From contig JAFUAH010000020.1 in the NCBI GenBank assembly GCA_017464345.1, positions 1 to 62,125 on the forward strand: a stretch of 62,125 bases of DNA. The letters run 5' to 3'. This document shows positions 2,878 through 62,020 of this stretch, piece by piece. The translations under genes were made by a program, and so were the position numbers. Each line of letters opens with the position of its first letter. Position 1 is the stretch's first letter. Under the pieces are notes generated by a model. The model had not been told where the DNA came from. It saw only the letters and a list, made by a program, of their open reading frames with translations, and ran no database searches. This DNA comes from Bacteroidaceae bacterium (GTDB lineage Bacteria > Bacteroidota > Bacteroidia > Bacteroidales > Bacteroidaceae).

Positions 2878-3072
2878 GACTATCGGGGACATCATGAATG
2901 ACCATCGGGGACATCTTGCCCCGTCATCTTGGACATCATGACTGGTGTCCTCGATAGTCTTGCCCGCTTACCATAGACATCATGCTTGAAAGTTGTACAA
3001 CTTTCTATATGCAAGTTGTACAACTTACCACCCGATAGTTGTACAACTTACTACCAATTACTTGTACAACTT
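2878..3072. repeat. Phased palindrome array: 5 degenerate 22-bp units, then 4 TTGTACAA units at 23 bp
   Basis: Units starting at 2878, 2900, 2922, 2944 and 2966 share GACATCATG or GACATCTTG-type cores at exactly 22 bp spacing. They are followed by four palindromes with core TTGTACAA at 2993, 3016, 3039 and 3062, exactly 23 bp apart. The first two are AAGTTGTACAACTT in full. The array fills most of the gap between the PspC gene and the barrel gene. No ORF of note is present. Confidence 0.85.
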
Positions 3073-3156
3073 ACCACCATTGTCTCCCCGAACACCAGTC
3101 ATCATCTTCGGGGTGAGCCCTCATTGTGTCCCTAATCTTCATCCTTATTGACCACT

Positions 3157-3199: not shown

Positions 3200-6018
3200 T
3201 GAAAAAGACATTCTTCCTCCTCGTCGCCCTCCTCGCCACCGCCGCCGCGCGGGCCGACATCCTGCAAGGGCGCGTCGTGGACGCCGAGACGGGCGAACCG
3301 CTGGACGGTGCCCGTGTGGAGGCCACGATGGCCTCGGGCGAGGGCACGTCCAACTGGACGCTCCAGACCGACACGCTCGGGCGGTTCCAGATGGAGAGCA
3401 TCGGCACGATGCGGCGCATCACGCTGCGCGCCGAGTTCTTCGGCTACCAGACAGAGACGGTGCGACTGCTGGCCAGTGCCGGCACCGACACCGTCCGCCT
3501 GGCCGACATCCGCCTGCGGCCCAGCGAGGTGCTCATGCGCGAACTCGCCGTCGAGGGCCGTGCACGGCGCTTCTACATGCGTGGCGACACGGTGGTCTTC
3601 AACCCACGAGGCTTCCCCGTGGAGGACAGCGACCGCCTCCAGGACCTCGTGCTCCGCCTGCCCGGCGTCTCGCTCCGCGACGGCCAACTCTTCTGGAACG
3701 GCAAGCCCGTGCGCCTGATGATGAACGGCCACGAGGCCCTGAGCGAGGACATGCTCTTGCGGCAGTTGCCCGTCGAGGCCGTGGAGAACATCAAGGCCTA
3801 CGAGCGCCGCAGCGAACTGGAGGAGCGCACGGGCATCGACGACGGGCGGCGCGAGCAGGTGCTCGACGTGACCATCCGTCCGCGCTTCATGGACCGCTGG
3901 AGCGGCGAGGTGAAGGCCACGGCCTACTCGCGACCGAACTACGCCGCGACGGCGGATGCCATGCGACTGAGCGACACCGACCCCGTGATGATGAACCTGC
4001 GCCTGGCCGACGACCCGCGCGCCGTCGTGAAGAACACCTTCGACAACCTTTGGGACTACGGCACCAGCGAAGCCACCCGCCAGCAGATGGGCAACGTGGG
4101 CTACAAACATGCCTGGAAGGGCTTCGAGGGAGCCACGCGCGACAGTTACTGGGCGCTCGTGGCCGGAGCCAATCACCGCGACACGCCCCACAGCCGGTGG
4201 GAGCACGCCCAGACCTATTTGCCCGGCACGCAACCCACCGAGACGGACACCGAGGAGCGCACCGATGAGCACCACCTGTCCACGCCCCTCGACTTCGCCT
4301 CGCGCATCGACCTCTCGCCCAACACCCGTATGCAGTGGAACGCCACGCTGGCCTACGAGCAGGACGAGCAGACCGCCGACCGACAGCAGCGGACGTTCTC
4401 CCTCCCTTTAAGGGAGGGTCGGGGTGGGACTGCTGCCTCCTACCAATCCGCCTCCCACTCCGACGGCCTCTCCGTCAAGGTGCAGAACAAGTTCCTGCAC
4501 ATGCTCGATAAGGGTATGCTCGGTGCCGGACTCGATGTCGACTACCGCCACCGGAAGGAGCGCGGCTCGTCGCTCGGCACGTACCACTACCTGCAAGACG
4601 GCACCACCACGCTCGACGCTCAGCGCTTCCGTGCGCCCGCCGACAACCTCAGCCTCGACCTCCATCTCGCCGCCATGCAGACCGTTGGCAAGAAGGCGAC
4701 CCTCGCTGCTCAGTGGACCACGGCCTACGGCTACACCTTCCGCGACGAACAGCGCTGGCGTGCCGACACGCTCGACCTCGCCAACAGCCTCCACCGTCGC
4801 GATAACCTCTGGCGGAACGAACTGGAACTGATGGCCCAACTCACGCTCGGCAAGTTCTCCCTCCAGCCCTCCCTCATGCTCACGCACCGCCACGAGCAGA
4901 GCGACTATAAAAGAGGTATGGGCTATCCTGCGGTGCCCCTTGCCTCCCCTCCCTCGCAGGGAGGGGCCGGGGGTGGGTCTGCCGGTGTCGACACCCTCGC
5001 CCGTCGCAACCTCCTGCTCACCACCCCCATGTTCGAGGTGGACTACCGCCTCGCCCAGCAGCAAGGCCTCAAGGCCCTTGTCTCGTATGTCGCGACTCCG
5101 TCGCAACTCATCGACGGCATCGCCTACACCGACGACACCAACCCCCTCTACATCACGGAGGGCAACCCCGGCCTCCGCACCTCGCACACCCTCAGCGCCA
5201 GCCTCACCTATAACCTGATGCGCACGCGGGGCAGCCAGTCGCTGGGCATCGAACTCCGCTACGCCCGCGACTACGACCCCATCGCCACCGTCCTGCACTA
5301 CAACTCCCAGACGGGCGGCTACCGCTCCTGGAAAAGCAACGTGCGCGGCGGCAGCCGTTGGGAGGGCAGCATCGACTACGACCGCTCGCTCGCCAAGAAC
5401 CTCCAGATGAAGAACCTGCTCTCTGGGCAGTGGGGCACCAGTTACGGCCTGCTGACCCTCGTCGACGAGGCCACCGGCCTGACCTACAACCGTCAGGCCC
5501 GCTCCAACCTGCGCGACCGCCTCGCGCTCACCTACGACGCCTCGCCCTGGCGTGCCGAGCTGATGCAGGAGTTCACTTGGAACAACTACACCTACAGCGA
5601 TGCCGCCCAGCCCGTGCAGAACATCTTCCGCTATGAGGCCGCCCTGCGCCTGCGCTATACGCTGAGGAACTGGAAGTTCACGCTCGACCCTCAACTCTAC
5701 GTCAATCGCGGTTACCTCGCCCCGGCGATGAACGACACCCCCTTCCTCCTCAATGCCGGAGTCTCTTATAAATTCTCGCACAGCGAGCGTAGTTCCTCTG
5801 GAACGTCCGGTTCCTCTGGCGGCAAGGGCAGTCTGCTCCGCCACCTCAGCAACCGCGCCGAGGTCAGCCTCTATGCCCGCGACCTTCTGAATCGGAACCG
5901 CCGGCACTCGTCCACCATCACCGCCACCAGCCACACCGAGGGCGGCGAGAGTTCCCTCCACAGTTACGTCACTCTCACCCTCCGCTACCGCTGGGACCCG
6001 CCGAAGAAGGAAAAATAA
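3199..6018 (+). CDS. Outer-membrane beta-barrel protein with carboxypeptidase-regulatory-like domain
   Basis: From the ATG at 3199 the protein begins with a signal peptide, MKKTFFLLVALLATAAARA. Starts at 3157 and 3178 would only add repeated MKQT peptides. Next comes a carboxypeptidase-regulatory-like domain (ILQGRVVDAETGEPLDGARV). A plug-like region follows (GDTVVFNPRGFPVEDSDRLQ...LRLPGVSL), then a long barrel of alternating aromatic strands ending in YRWDPPKKEK. This is the OMP_b-brl type, not a classical SusC. Two GC-rich elements are inserted in frame in barrel loops, encoding SLPLREGRGG and SPPSQGGAGGG. No TonB box or SusD partner is seen, so the transported substrate is unknown. Confidence 0.82.
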   Translation: MKKTFFLLVALLATAAARADILQGRVVDAETGEPLDGARVEATMASGEGTSNWTLQTDTLGRFQMESIGTMRRITLRAEFFGYQTETVRLLASAGTDTVRLADIRLRPSEVLMRELAVEGRARRFYMRGDTVVFNPRGFPVEDSDRLQDLVLRLPGVSLRDGQLFWNGKPVRLMMNGHEALSEDMLLRQLPVEAVENIKAYERRSELEERTGIDDGRREQVLDVTIRPRFMDRWSGEVKATAYSRPNYAATADAMRLSDTDPVMMNLRLADDPRAVVKNTFDNLWDYGTSEATRQQMGNVGYKHAWKGFEGATRDSYWALVAGANHRDTPHSRWEHAQTYLPGTQPTETDTEERTDEHHLSTPLDFASRIDLSPNTRMQWNATLAYEQDEQTADRQQRTFSLPLREGRGGTAASYQSASHSDGLSVKVQNKFLHMLDKGMLGAGLDVDYRHRKERGSSLGTYHYLQDGTTTLDAQRFRAPADNLSLDLHLAAMQTVGKKATLAAQWTTAYGYTFRDEQRWRADTLDLANSLHRRDNLWRNELELMAQLTLGKFSLQPSLMLTHRHEQSDYKRGMGYPAVPLASPPSQGGAGGGSAGVDTLARRNLLLTTPMFEVDYRLAQQQGLKALVSYVATPSQLIDGIAYTDDTNPLYITEGNPGLRTSHTLSASLTYNLMRTRGSQSLGIELRYARDYDPIATVLHYNSQTGGYRSWKSNVRGGSRWEGSIDYDRSLAKNLQMKNLLSGQWGTSYGLLTLVDEATGLTYNRQARSNLRDRLALTYDASPWRAELMQEFTWNNYTYSDAAQPVQNIFRYEAALRLRYTLRNWKFTLDPQLYVNRGYLAPAMNDTPFLLNAGVSYKFSHSERSSSGTSGSSGGKGSLLRHLSNRAEVSLYARDLLNRNRRHSSTITATSHTEGGESSLHSYVTLTLRYRWDPPKKEK
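4396..4436. repeat. GC-rich palindromic element in barrel gene (in frame)
   Basis: CTCCCTTTAAGGGAG is a perfect hairpin followed by GGTCGGGGTGGGA. It encodes SLPLREGRGG in a probable extracellular loop and is the same family as the element at 4943. Confidence 0.75.
4943..4981. repeat. GC-rich palindromic element in barrel gene, second copy
   Basis: CCCCTCCCTCGCAGGGAGGG followed by GCCGGGGGTGGGT. It encodes SPPSQGGAGGG and the reading frame is kept. Confidence 0.75.
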
Positions 6019-20920: not shown

Positions 20921-21736
20921 ATGAAACAAACACTAATAACTCTGCTGGCCCTGTTGCTCACCGTCGTGGGCACGAAGGCCGAAGTAAGTGAGATTGATGA
21001 TTCTTTACTTATAAAAAGGCGGCAGGAACATGTGCGCAGACTTGCTGAGCACTCACGTAAGTTGCTGGAACACGCCCGTGAACTACAGAAAAAGTCTCAG
21101 TACTGGGGGGATAGTATCCGTGAACGTTTCAATCAGATGCCGTCCGACACTGCCCGATGGCGACAGGACGATTACTTCGTATTTCCTTCGGATAGTAGCC
21201 TATGGGGCTATACTCCGCACAATAAGCCTTATCAGGAGTTCGGTGCCTGGCCGTGGGAGGGATTCGATGTCGAAGCACCTGTAGCGCAGCCCCCCCTCAT
21301 CGACCTGAGTAACATCAAGGGCCATTGGGGATTCGAGGACTACTACTTCTCGGGCGACATCCTCCACGCCCAGGCCCGTCGCGGCGACTTCTACATCAAC
21401 GGCTGGAACATCCGCCCCCTGCTTAAGCGCCTCAGCGGCCTCCTCGTCTTGAAGTCAAAGAAGAAGGCGGCAGAGAAAATCATCTTCTCCCGAGAGACAC
21501 AACTGCGTAACGATAAACGCTTCCAGCCCATCGTCCGCGACAGAGGCATCACCATCTATGGTCACCACACCAAGGACAATCTGCTCGACGAAGTCATCAT
21601 CCTCCTGCCCAAGGACCAATCGCCCCAGAGCGAACACGTCTGCATCATACAGATGATGGGTCTCCTGCGCTCCGAAGACCTCACCACCTACCGGCAACTC
21701 CGCGAGCCTTCCCCCAAGCCGAAGGTGAAGCAATAG
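20921..21736 (+). CDS. Secreted protein, possibly DUF4252-like (cassette 3)
   Basis: A signal peptide (MKQTLITLLALLLTVVGTKAE) is followed by a coiled-coil-prone stretch (KRRQEHVRRLAEHSRKLLEHARELQKK). After it comes a domain with DFYINGWNIRPLLKRLSGLLVLKS...ITIYGHHTKDNLLDEVIILLP...HVCIIQMMGLLRSEDLTTY. The pattern of a leucine-rich first part, a charged strand and a closing I-Q-x-x-G-x-L-x-x-E-D-L resembles DUF4252 proteins, which often sit next to ECF sigma/anti-sigma pairs in Bacteroidales. It starts four bases after the preceding stop. Confidence in the secretion call is high, in the DUF4252 call moderate. Confidence 0.7.
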   Translation: MKQTLITLLALLLTVVGTKAEVSEIDDSLLIKRRQEHVRRLAEHSRKLLEHARELQKKSQYWGDSIRERFNQMPSDTARWRQDDYFVFPSDSSLWGYTPHNKPYQEFGAWPWEGFDVEAPVAQPPLIDLSNIKGHWGFEDYYFSGDILHAQARRGDFYINGWNIRPLLKRLSGLLVLKSKKKAAEKIIFSRETQLRNDKRFQPIVRDRGITIYGHHTKDNLLDEVIILLPKDQSPQSEHVCIIQMMGLLRSEDLTTYRQLREPSPKPKVKQ

Positions 21737-21772
21737 GGTGTGTGCGACGCAAGACTATGAACTTTCACGCTC

Positions 21773-21879
21773 TGCCATAGTATGGCAAACATCTCTGCCA
21801 TAGTATGGCAAACATCTCTGCCATAGTATGGCAAACATCTCTGCCATAGTATGGCAAACATCTCTGCCATAGTATGGCA
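21773..21879. repeat. Phased palindrome array: 5 x TGCCATAGTATGGCA at 23 bp
   Basis: Five identical 15-base palindromes start at 21773, 21796, 21819, 21842 and 21865, separated by eight-base spacers AACATCTC. The array lies 37 bases after the cassette 3 secreted protein and before rpsO. No coding potential is plausible. Confidence 0.95.
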
Positions 21880-21997
21880 CTCTTAAAAGCTTCATATTGT
21901 CTTGAGTCGTGCTTCGTAGGGAAAAGGCAGGGGCAATAGGCAGTAATGGTCAGAGGCAATAGGCGAAAGTAATCGCAAATTTAGATACTTCCGCTCG

Positions 21998-22130
21998 AAA
22001 ATCCCAAATAAATTTGGTATTCTGCTCGCTTATTCGTATCTCTGACCTTCTTTGTAGGTCGAAGTTAGGCTGCATCTCGGAAAAACTCCAATAAATATTT
22101 GGTTATTCGCTCGATTTGCACTAACTTTGC
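21998..22130 (+). promoter_or_regulatory. rpsO promoter preceded by a degenerate second copy
   Basis: The active-looking promoter has TTTG at 22098-22101 and TAACTTTG at 22122-22129 (20-base spacer). A related stretch at 21998-22047 (AAATAAATTTGG, TGCTCGCTTATTCG, TATCTCTG) resembles both this promoter and the one at 28600, but its -7 is poor. Between 21880 and 21997 I see nothing else. Confidence 0.75.
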
Positions 22131-22207
22131 ACCCGCATTTGCGAAACAGTGCCGACGAGTGGTTGCTGTTCGACAAACAAGTTTAACACAAAAAATACTA
22201 AAGTACT

Positions 22208-22477
22208 ATGTATTTAGATTCAGCCAAGAAGACAGAGCTCTTCGAGCAGTTCGGCGGTGGCGCAACCAACACGGGTAGCGCAGAGAGCCAGATTGCATTG
22301 TTCACCTATCGCATCAAGCACCTGACGGAGCACATGAAGCAGAACCGTAAGGACCACAGCACCGAGCGTGCCTTGACGGGTCTCGTCGGTAAGCGTCGTT
22401 CCCTGCTCAACTACCTGAAGGCTCGCGACATCAACCGCTATCGTGCCATCGTGAAGGCTCTGGGTCTGCGTAAGTAA
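22208..22477 (+). CDS. rpsO: 30S ribosomal protein S15
   Basis: 89 residues, the normal length. The family core is complete: GGGATNTGSAESQIALFTYRI, HLTEHMKQNRKDHSTERALTGLVGKRRSLLNYL and RYRAIVKALGLRK. S15 is an early binder of the central domain of 16S rRNA. The gene is monocistronic, with its own promoter upstream and a perfect terminator 30 bases after the stop. The long leader (about 70 bases) leaves room for autogenous control, but I see no conserved structure that proves it. Confidence 0.98.
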   Translation: MYLDSAKKTELFEQFGGGATNTGSAESQIALFTYRIKHLTEHMKQNRKDHSTERALTGLVGKRRSLLNYLKARDINRYRAIVKALGLRK

Positions 22478-38357: not shown

Positions 38358-38437
38358 ATCCCGTACAGGATTCCCCGTCGTCCTGCATAGGATTTGCCTC
38401 TGTCCAGCATAGCTTTCGCCGCCGTCCCGTACGGGGC
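38358..38437. repeat. Phased palindrome array: 4 units of GTCCCGTACAGGAT family at 22 bp
   Basis: ATCCCGTACAGGAT (38358), GTCCTGCATAGGAT (38380), GTCCAGCATAGCTT (38402) and GTCCCGTACGGGGC (38424) are exactly 22 bases apart with eight-base spacers. The same family occurs at 61851. The array lies in the 406-base gap between the recombinase start and argR. GC-rich CGCGTG sequence follows to about 38480. Confidence 0.85.
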
Positions 38438-38564
38438 TGTGCCCCGACCTGTCTACGTACGCGCGTGATACACGCGTGCGCGTCCTTATCTATATATTAT
38501 AGTTCCTCTGCTGCTCGCTCCGCAGTCTTGTTGTAGGCTTTTGTTCATTTATATTCAAAAATAC

Positions 38565-50996: not shown

Positions 50997-51147
50997 AATC
51001 CTGATGATTGTATTAGTTAAAAATAATGTCTGACGCACAGCCGTTTGATGGGTTGTGTCTTATGATTTGGCTGCAAAGGTACAACTTTTTGTGCATATAA
51101 CAGTAGGTTTGATACAGAAAACTTGCAGACCTTTACGGGCAAACTGC

Positions 51148-51232
51148 GTCCATCGACCGATGGACGAACATCCGCCGCCGACGGATGGCCGTCCGTCGGC
51201 GATGAATGTACATCCGTCGGCCGACGGCGGAA
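51148..51232. repeat. Phased palindrome array: 4 units of TCCGTCGGCCGACGGA type at 21-22 bp
   Basis: GTCCATCGACCGATGGAC (51148), ATCCGCCGCCGACGGAT (51170), GTCCGTCGGCGATGAAT (51191) and ATCCGTCGGCCGACGG (51212) are spaced 22, 21 and 21 bases. The array lies between the divergent SulP and POT genes. The remaining intergenic sequence holds a TAACTTTG element near 51342, probably the -7 of the POT promoter. Confidence 0.8.
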
Positions 51233-61850: not shown

Positions 61851-61930
61851 GTCCCGTACAGGATTGTCCTCGGTCCTGTGCGGGATTGCGTTTCGTCCCG
61901 CACGGGATGGGCTTCCGTCCTGCGCGGGAC
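61851..61930. repeat. Phased palindrome array: 4 units of GTCCCGTACAGGAT family at 22 bp
   Basis: GTCCCGTACAGGAT (61851), GTCCTGTGCGGGAT (61873), GTCCCGCACGGGAT (61895) and GTCCTGCGCGGGAC (61917) are exactly 22 bases apart, with eight-base spacers TGTCCTCG, TGCGTTTC and GGGCTTCC. A fifth degenerate unit may begin near 61939. It shares its first unit core CCCGTACAGGAT with the array at 38358. Confidence 0.93.
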
Positions 61931-62020
61931 ATTTTCTGTTCCGGCCCTCGCGCGGGAATCCTATTATAATTACGCGCACGCGAAGCGTTGAAAAAAAGTT
62001 TGAAAAAAGTTGTGTAAAAA

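Follow-up and report, generated by a model that had tools for sequence, protein, structure and literature searches.

What is a row of five identical palindromes doing between two genes of a Bacteroidaceae genome, and what holds its units at so exact a distance? In the window (the whole stretch of DNA that was analysed, 62,125 nucleotides), TGCCATAGTATGGCA occurs five times without change at 21773-21879, with units starting at 21773, 21796, 21819, 21842 and 21865, a pitch of exactly 23 bp and four 8-bp spacers that all read AACATCTC. The arrangement had been reported in a preliminary description made from the sequence alone, and it is confirmed here in each particular: on a three-unit score that combines palindromy and mutual similarity, the array reaches 37, against a maximum of 15 in 30 shuffles of the whole window.

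The rpsO locus and the other arrays of the window

The features of the locus, followed by the other arrays of the window, are these:

20921..21736, + strand: upstream open reading frame, 271 aa, with its stop 36 bp before the array; no match in a Pfam scan
21737..21996, no strand: 260-bp array-bearing segment, absent in the sister species G035 (species comparison)
21745..21766, no strand: left arm of an imperfect outer inverted repeat (by eye), pairing in part with the right arm in an RNA fold
21773..21787, no strand: palindrome unit 1, TGCCATAGTATGGCA, a 15-bp dyad with a central G
21796..21810, no strand: palindrome unit 2, 23 bp past unit 1
21819..21833, no strand: palindrome unit 3, read from the sequence
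21842..21856, no strand: palindrome unit 4, read from the sequence
21865..21879, no strand: palindrome unit 5, read from the sequence
21885..21909, no strand: right arm of the imperfect outer inverted repeat (by eye and RNA fold)
22208..22477, + strand: rpsO, ribosomal protein S15 (PF00312, E 2.4e-30), 328 bp downstream of the array
2988..3079, no strand: second array of the class, AGTTGTACAACT units at a pitch of about 23-25 (score 32), adjoining the stretch at 2878
38358..38446, no strand: degenerate CCYGYRCRGG-family array at 22 bp, weak on its own score, with purine-pyrimidine tracts from ~38455
51147..51232, no strand: possible array of CGTCCATCGACCGATGGACG and relatives at uneven pitch (21, ~31), not above shuffles
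61851..61930, no strand: CCYGYRCRGG-family array, four 22-bp-spaced units followed closely by TACGCGCACGCG (family pattern and score)

At the matching place, the sister species has the stop codon, then 2 bp (CA) and then homologous GAAAAT sequence; the bases just before the stop codon also differ between the two. The absence of the array there, together with its identical spacers, makes it look recently inserted or amplified, and the identity of its units, spacers included, points to growth by recent duplication. This copy shows no sign of selection. The preliminary description had named simple recent tandem duplication, missing from close relatives, as a reading that would undo the class it proposed; that reading appears to fit the window array. 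The segment has no match in a plasmid collection. The same palindrome recurs at three further loci of the same genome (G000). One (C13) is an array of four units; the other two (C21 and C25) have three units each, one exact and the rest variants. The pitch is again 23 bp, and by eye the arrays come soon after stop codons. The word is thus family-specific, and not mostly locus-specific as had been supposed. Farther along, the stretch at ~21980-22139, upstream of rpsO, recurs at 80-95% identity at a second place in 11 or more congeners, as a dispersed promoter-region repeat would; its end resembles a Bacteroidetes-type promoter.

The four other arrays that had been named alongside this one fared unequally. 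The stretch at 2878 scores 9, below the shuffle mean of 9.7, and is no palindrome array; its neighbour at 2988..3079 is one, with the palindrome of a 22-bp family in another genome (G001). The stretches at 38358 (score 12) and 51148 (15) do not rise above shuffles and that at 61851 (18) stands just above them; those at 38358 and 61851 are retained as members of the CC family described below, and the membership of the array at 51148 is uncertain.

A class defined by spacing

Intergenic palindrome arrays with a fixed pitch form a class larger than first noted, and what its members have in common, in a dominant group of gut bacteria, is the spacing and not the word. We scanned for three mutually similar palindromes with the combined score, keeping the best peak per ~150 bp. 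At a score of at least 22, this returned 9 arrays in 721 kb of the window's own genome, 14 in 384 kb of G035 and 18 in 1.44 Mb from 79 Bacteroidales loci, the last a convenience sample gathered with one protein query; one shuffle of each set gave 0. With the pitch left free from 12 to 45 bp and a score of at least 20, there were 62 arrays in 2.94 Mb (own genome 14, G035 18, others 30), 51 of them with a pitch of 21-24 bp and 11 at other pitches, against 0 in one shuffle of the 2.94 Mb. The fixed pitch is therefore far commoner in real than in shuffled DNA, as the preliminary description had expected; the counts are not independent, since units are duplicated within arrays and array copies are related by descent.

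A scan at score 18 found 0 arrays in 395 kb (20 stretches from 18 genomes labelled as the same class, presumably of other orders), where the rate of the 79 loci would give about seven. Eight 10-kb stretches of other classes (80 kb) had none at 21-24 bp and one array of pitch 12; 150 kb of E. coli K-12 likewise had none at 21-24 bp and one of pitch 18. Rfam at gathering score matched two tRNAs only in 105,140 bases from four sources, leaving the arrays unmatched, and no description of phased palindrome arrays in Bacteroidota was found in the titles and starts of abstracts of the open-licence papers searched.

The arrays fall into sequence families, most of which occur in few species, at several to dozens of loci per genome. 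In G001, a MAG from horse faeces (L047), 30 arrays at 22-23 bp comprise four families told apart by eye (AACATTGCWGCAATGTT 18, AAAGTTGTACAACTTT 7, AAAACTG..CAGTTTT 4 and AACATTCTTAGAATGTT 1), shares that are biased because the 20 stretches of this genome were largely chosen around known AACATTG places; four further arrays have a pitch of 12, 18 or 44, and several arrays resemble one another in outer sequence across family lines (by eye). So many palindromes in one genome speak against one ordinary repressor, as had been argued. A fuzzy search for AACATTGCWGCAATGTT, the AACATTG word, found 25 arrays in G001, all but one of them (24) consisting of exactly three units with two 23-bp steps, and with at most one mismatch on the forward strand the word has 217 places there and 0 in five other genomes. 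The AACCAGT word, AACCAGTSACTGGTT, is comparably restricted, with 53 units in G035 (the listed ones stepping 22 bp) and 0 in the 138 other congeneric species searched, G000 (61% complete) among them; TGCCATASTATGGCA was found in 9 of 139 species of the genus.

The spacing within two further families is as follows. In B. mediterraneensis (G284, L064; type strain NZ_LT635783.1), all 19 exact units of AGTACTNNAGTACT stand in 22-bp arrays, with 0 of 19 isolated and 11 of 11 adjacent distances equal to 22 bp. The same word has 12 units in G285 (four distances of 22, two of 44, one unit isolated) and 55 in G286, where the 44 listed include 20 distances of 22, four of 44 and two isolated units. Its two central bases take many values, and its AGTACT half-sites step 14 and 8 bp alternately in 22 loci or pieces, in runs of 5-8 that are most often of 8. 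The second family, CC[CTG]G[TC][AG]C[AGC]GG, accounts for 14 arrays of the window's own genome. Its pattern exceeds chance only slightly, with 74 places in 1.12 Mb and 48 in one shuffle; yet whenever two places lie within 80 bp of each other, their distance is 22, 44 or 66 (23 of 23 pairs). Weakly conserved bases lie just outside the dyad on both sides, with no constant tag. In two CC-family arrays (L259 12695-12800 and L260 7840-7950) the word changes along the ladder, CCCGTACGGG, GACTCGCCCGAGTC and TTGACGGACAATTGACCCACAA standing on one 22-bp register.

Several further observations concern the words and their surroundings. By eye, flanking units with a CTTAGG/CCTAAG core at ~22-bp pitch accompany arrays of G035 (L205 18990-19400, L198 9540-9830, L191 17300-17640), so here too the word would change along one array as the pitch runs on. 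AAGATTACTAATCTT forms 23-bp arrays in two species (L139 600-670 in G007, L023 1916-1980 in the window's own genome), TTTCACGNCGNGAAA-like palindromes form 21-bp arrays in congeners (L184 3000-3070, L185 3020-3090), and at three places with a 44-bp pitch (L180 ~2049, L183 ~2047, L138 951) two unit types apparently alternate every 22 bp. In L023, an array and its whole surroundings exist in two copies 4.9 kb apart (280-480 and 5180-5400), and behind each copy stands a hairpin that resembles a terminator, GGAGCGTACC..GGTGCGCTCCTTTTT (by eye). Long alternating purine-pyrimidine tracts prone to form Z-DNA, no two alike in sequence, lie beside arrays of two species (window 38455-38490 and 61960-61975; L021 7477, L015 16602, L025 15944, L194 5394), and 6 of the 9 AACCAGT arrays shown for G035 have an alternating tract, on the same side (by eye).

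The class is intergenic, as had been stated: 69 of 70 arrays in the stretches from the window's own genome, G035 and G001 lie outside predicted genes, in DNA that is 84-88% coding. Both neighbours are known for 60 arrays of pitch 21-24 (9 of the 70 stand at a stretch edge and the 1 inside a predicted gene was left unplaced), of which 30 lie between co-directional, 11 between convergent and 19 between divergent genes. Within co-directional gaps, 23 of 30 arrays are nearer the upstream stop (one-sided binomial ~0.003, by hand), with approximate distances that come from a simple gene caller and are measured from the best three units. The idea that arrays strictly follow stop codons is weakened by the 19 arrays between divergent genes, and a role solely at gene 3' ends does not fit all arrays for the same reason. 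The neighbours are themselves varied. Seven of 10 window proteins matched Pfam, with PspC-like, rpsO, DUF2807, SulP and POT genes adjoining arrays; 17 of 20 other flanking proteins scanned (28 listed) matched at E 0.001, one of them below curated cut-offs, and these are of unrelated kinds. A regulon was considered and set aside, since the genes that flank arrays code for enzymes, transporters and other products with no common theme. No cognate DNA-binding protein emerged, and we nominate no reader.

Constraint, turnover and competing explanations

The units are constrained unevenly. In 181 adjacent pairs at pitch 21-24, the range that the profile required and to which it is confined, neighbouring units are identical at 0.81-0.97 at offsets 1-7 from the dyad and at 0.37-0.43 at offsets 10-11; detection used the inner 15 bp, so that identity there is inflated and spacer identity is not. 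In G001, identity at 9-11 bp from the dyad is 0.10-0.42. Spacer length shows no drift within the families counted. The innermost dyad pair is complementary in 68-69% of units and the next six in 80-98%, pairs that were also used for detection. At an orthologous locus beside luxS, compared among four Bacteroides genomes (L064, L067, L057 and L338) that are few and related, variation touches 1 of the 42 columns in half-sites and 9 of the 30 in centres and spacers (Fisher p 0.0012), with no gaps; the flanks vary at 16 of 110 and 4 of 29 columns. A drifting duplicate would lose half-sites and spacers alike, and the retention of half-sites at this locus is the main evidence that selection for binding may keep copies. 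Half-sites and pitch kept, with spacers and centres free, is also the pattern that cooperative binding, the expectation of the preliminary description, would produce, and the free centre dinucleotides of AGTACTNNAGTACT would fit a protein dimer better than a hairpin.

Arrays also turn over between species. A AAGACGCGC array of G035 is absent from the matching place of the window, one TGCCATA array is common to G000 and G035 at the same place, and a gap that holds a AAGATAGTTATCTT array in G035 (L205) holds an array of CCCGTACGGG and other words in the window's own genome (L260), one case between sister species of conserved architecture with varying sequence, for which a test at orthologous loci had been proposed. 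Between one species and the next, then, modules appear, disappear and change their word. No clear target-site duplication was seen in the G000/G035 comparisons, where the replaced stretches are untidy. The young AACCAGT family of G035 has spacers largely common to its copies; copies in old families (AGTACT and the CC family) share half-sites and pitch only. Among the 25 AACATTG arrays of G001, both outer inverted-repeat arms were found in 10, one in 12 and none in 3, where arms were sought within 30 bp at up to 3 mismatches and 0.9% of random 30-bp stretches have one; inverted ends are not evident by eye in the AACCAGT modules of G035 or in those of B. mediterraneensis, and are imperfect in the window. 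A locus of G001 was compared with its orthologues across the genus, where 59 of 60 genomes gave a match; the matches listed outside G001 covered the downstream gene only, and the array region matched only within G001. Of 20 loci at this place, G001's own included, three others carry arrays (pitch 22, 22 and 16), none with the same word; relatives also have pitches of 44, 29 and 16. One G001 array had no match in a phage collection.

Much of this would be expected of selfish REP-like or MITE-like repeats, modules without host function that are copied by a transposase, with the phased palindromes or the outer inverted repeats as its recognition signal. The species-specific burst of AACCAGTSACTGGTT, the presence and absence of arrays between sister species, the outer inverted repeats of G001 and the intergenic position all favour this account, which we regard as possible while leaning against it. 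It lacks an evident mover: no PF01797 (Y1_Tnp) gene was found in six array-bearing genomes (G000, 61% complete; G004, G006, G284, G285 and G286), and Pfam found no transposase among 20 array-flanking proteins of other genomes. Weak PF01797 matches were seen in G003 (one, below cut-off; L032 belongs to this genome, which is apparently identical with G035), in G001 (one, 28 bits, with one internal stop) and in G007 (two), and G005 has four Y1 genes with no array of its palindrome in the flanks examined. A RAYT transposase as general mover is accordingly rejected on the six genomes, and G002 may differ. In that genome (L133, L138), two Y1 genes have phased arrays within ~0.6 kb, along with other repeats that contain GTAGCCG (by eye). 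The luxS-side copy, moreover, keeps its half-sites as its spacers change, unlike a dead selfish copy. Replication slippage, as neutral tandem duplication of palindromes, would explain the identical units and spacers of the window, and as an account of the class we find it scarcely credible, because the pitch clusters at 21-24 bp across unrelated sequences, because spacers within families have almost fully diverged at unchanged length with half-sites selectively conserved, and because the control DNA (same class, other classes and E. coli) has no array at that pitch.

Two further readings place the function in the nucleic acid itself. Rows of hairpins in 3' untranslated RNA, protecting or terminating transcripts, would account for the position of co-directional arrays nearer the upstream stop, and when four strands were folded the arrays beat shuffles (z -6.8 to -11.2), as any palindrome row must. 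We consider such a role unlikely: dyad mismatches include 26 G-T against 35 A-C on the transcribed strand (39 against 59 in other contexts), arrays between divergent genes and the lack of an Rfam match do not suit it, loops in the commonest families are of 0-2 bases, the exact 22/23 bp pitch has no obvious RNA reason, and some arrays have separate terminator-like hairpins downstream (by eye). The absence of a G-T excess, with innermost-pair complementarity beyond what a hairpin loop needs, favours binding of duplex DNA. Very unlikely, in our judgement, is storage of supercoiling between genes by cruciform-prone or Z-DNA-prone sequence. An alternating purine-pyrimidine run of at least 12 lies within 70 bp of 10 of the 14 CC-family arrays (each run of a different sequence), against 3% of random positions, which are mostly coding and so an unmatched background; runs of at least 22 number 9 in the own-genome sample and 0-2 in three shuffles, whereas at a threshold of 14 one shuffle has more of them (77, against 49 in the sample; in G035, 35 against 12). 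Topology needs no exact pitch, seven-base arms are short for cruciforms, and free centres with a strict 8/14 alternation of half-sites look like a protein lattice.

Our leading account, to which we give an even chance, is that the copied modules are multi-dimer platforms for a putative DNA-binding protein, with a structural use as the likeliest. The window array would then be one copy of a dispersed Bacteroidaceae intergenic module that works through its lattice of symmetric half-sites. A dimer of some sequence-specific protein would occupy each palindrome of 14-18 bp and make contact with the next dimer at a fixed dyad-to-dyad distance, 22 or 23 bp according to the family, so that 3-5 dimers would make one continuous protein patch of ~65-110 bp. 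The module would spread as a segment of 80-250 bp copied into intergenic sites, after which spacers would drift as half-sites and pitch were kept; that retention suggests that the cell benefits from some copies at least. Such a patch would more likely act between genes as a boundary, a roadblock or an anchor for the nucleoid, in many cases right behind a stop codon, than regulate the promoter next to it. Weighing against this account are the failure to find a reader, the untidy replaced segments between G000 and G035, which show no clean insertion, the 11 of 62 arrays at other pitches and, for a role at 3' ends, the arrays between divergent genes. Extended to the class, the account is tentative, and we would sooner bet against it than for it in this full form: modules with lattices of 6-8 half-sites would serve as chromosomal protein-patch sites, read by fast-diverging, lattice-forming proteins with several specificities per genome, and would mark gene boundaries or organise the nucleoid, the sites spreading by copying and the word and its reader changing together between species.

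Comparison with known repeat systems

Among known systems, the arrays resemble REP/BIME repeats in being short intergenic palindromes of high copy number and species-specific sequence, often clustered and amplified in bursts within one genome. RAYT transposases are the known movers of REPs, whose tag is GTAG. The arrays differ in having no constant GTAG/CGTC foot, their spacers being nearly free, and in their fixed 22/23 bp pitch; judged against REP/BIME membership, they have the intergenic position, the copy number and the species-specific sequence, and lack the tag and, in the six genomes named above, the RAYT. Where REPs have a known tag and mover, the present class is defined by geometry, and its arrays may serve as fast-evolving, species-specific markers.

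Tandem operators such as the met boxes of MetJ, and plasmid iterons and centromeres, consist of several sites at fixed spacing that are bound side by side, and they sit at one promoter or origin. By analogy with these, the arrays might act as cooperative operators set in a row or as a centromere in miniature; they differ in occurring as many copies between unrelated genes, with several palindrome families per genome. Nor are they CRISPR arrays, their spacers being of 6-8 bp in place of long and unique ones.

A nearer neighbour in phylogeny is the BrickBuilt MITE of Porphyromonas gingivalis, an intergenic element with 23-nt tandem repeats and inverted ends, present in 19 copies in one genome (PMC4596501), and the statement that no described Bacteroidota element has this form was in that respect too strong. 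The likeness lies in the Bacteroidales host, the intergenic position and a 23-nt repeat to set beside the 23-bp pitch; the difference is that BrickBuilt is, as described in the part of the account available, a direct-repeat minisatellite without spacers, where phased palindromes with free spacers do not figure (PMC4596501). The best dyad in its printed consensus has 6 of 8 pairs by hand count, which we estimate would arise by chance about one time in five. On either side of the subclass 2.6 TnpA-REP of Bacteroidetes lie 'atypical secondary structures' that recur at other places of the genome (PMC6006769); by that partial description, the likeness may lie in the phylum and in the dispersed structures, and the difference is that several array-bearing genomes here yielded no Y1 gene. 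The genomic object thus resembles REP/BIME repeats and the BrickBuilt MITE and fails the REP tests of tag and RAYT, and we rate the arrays as a variant of dispersed intergenic palindromic repeats.
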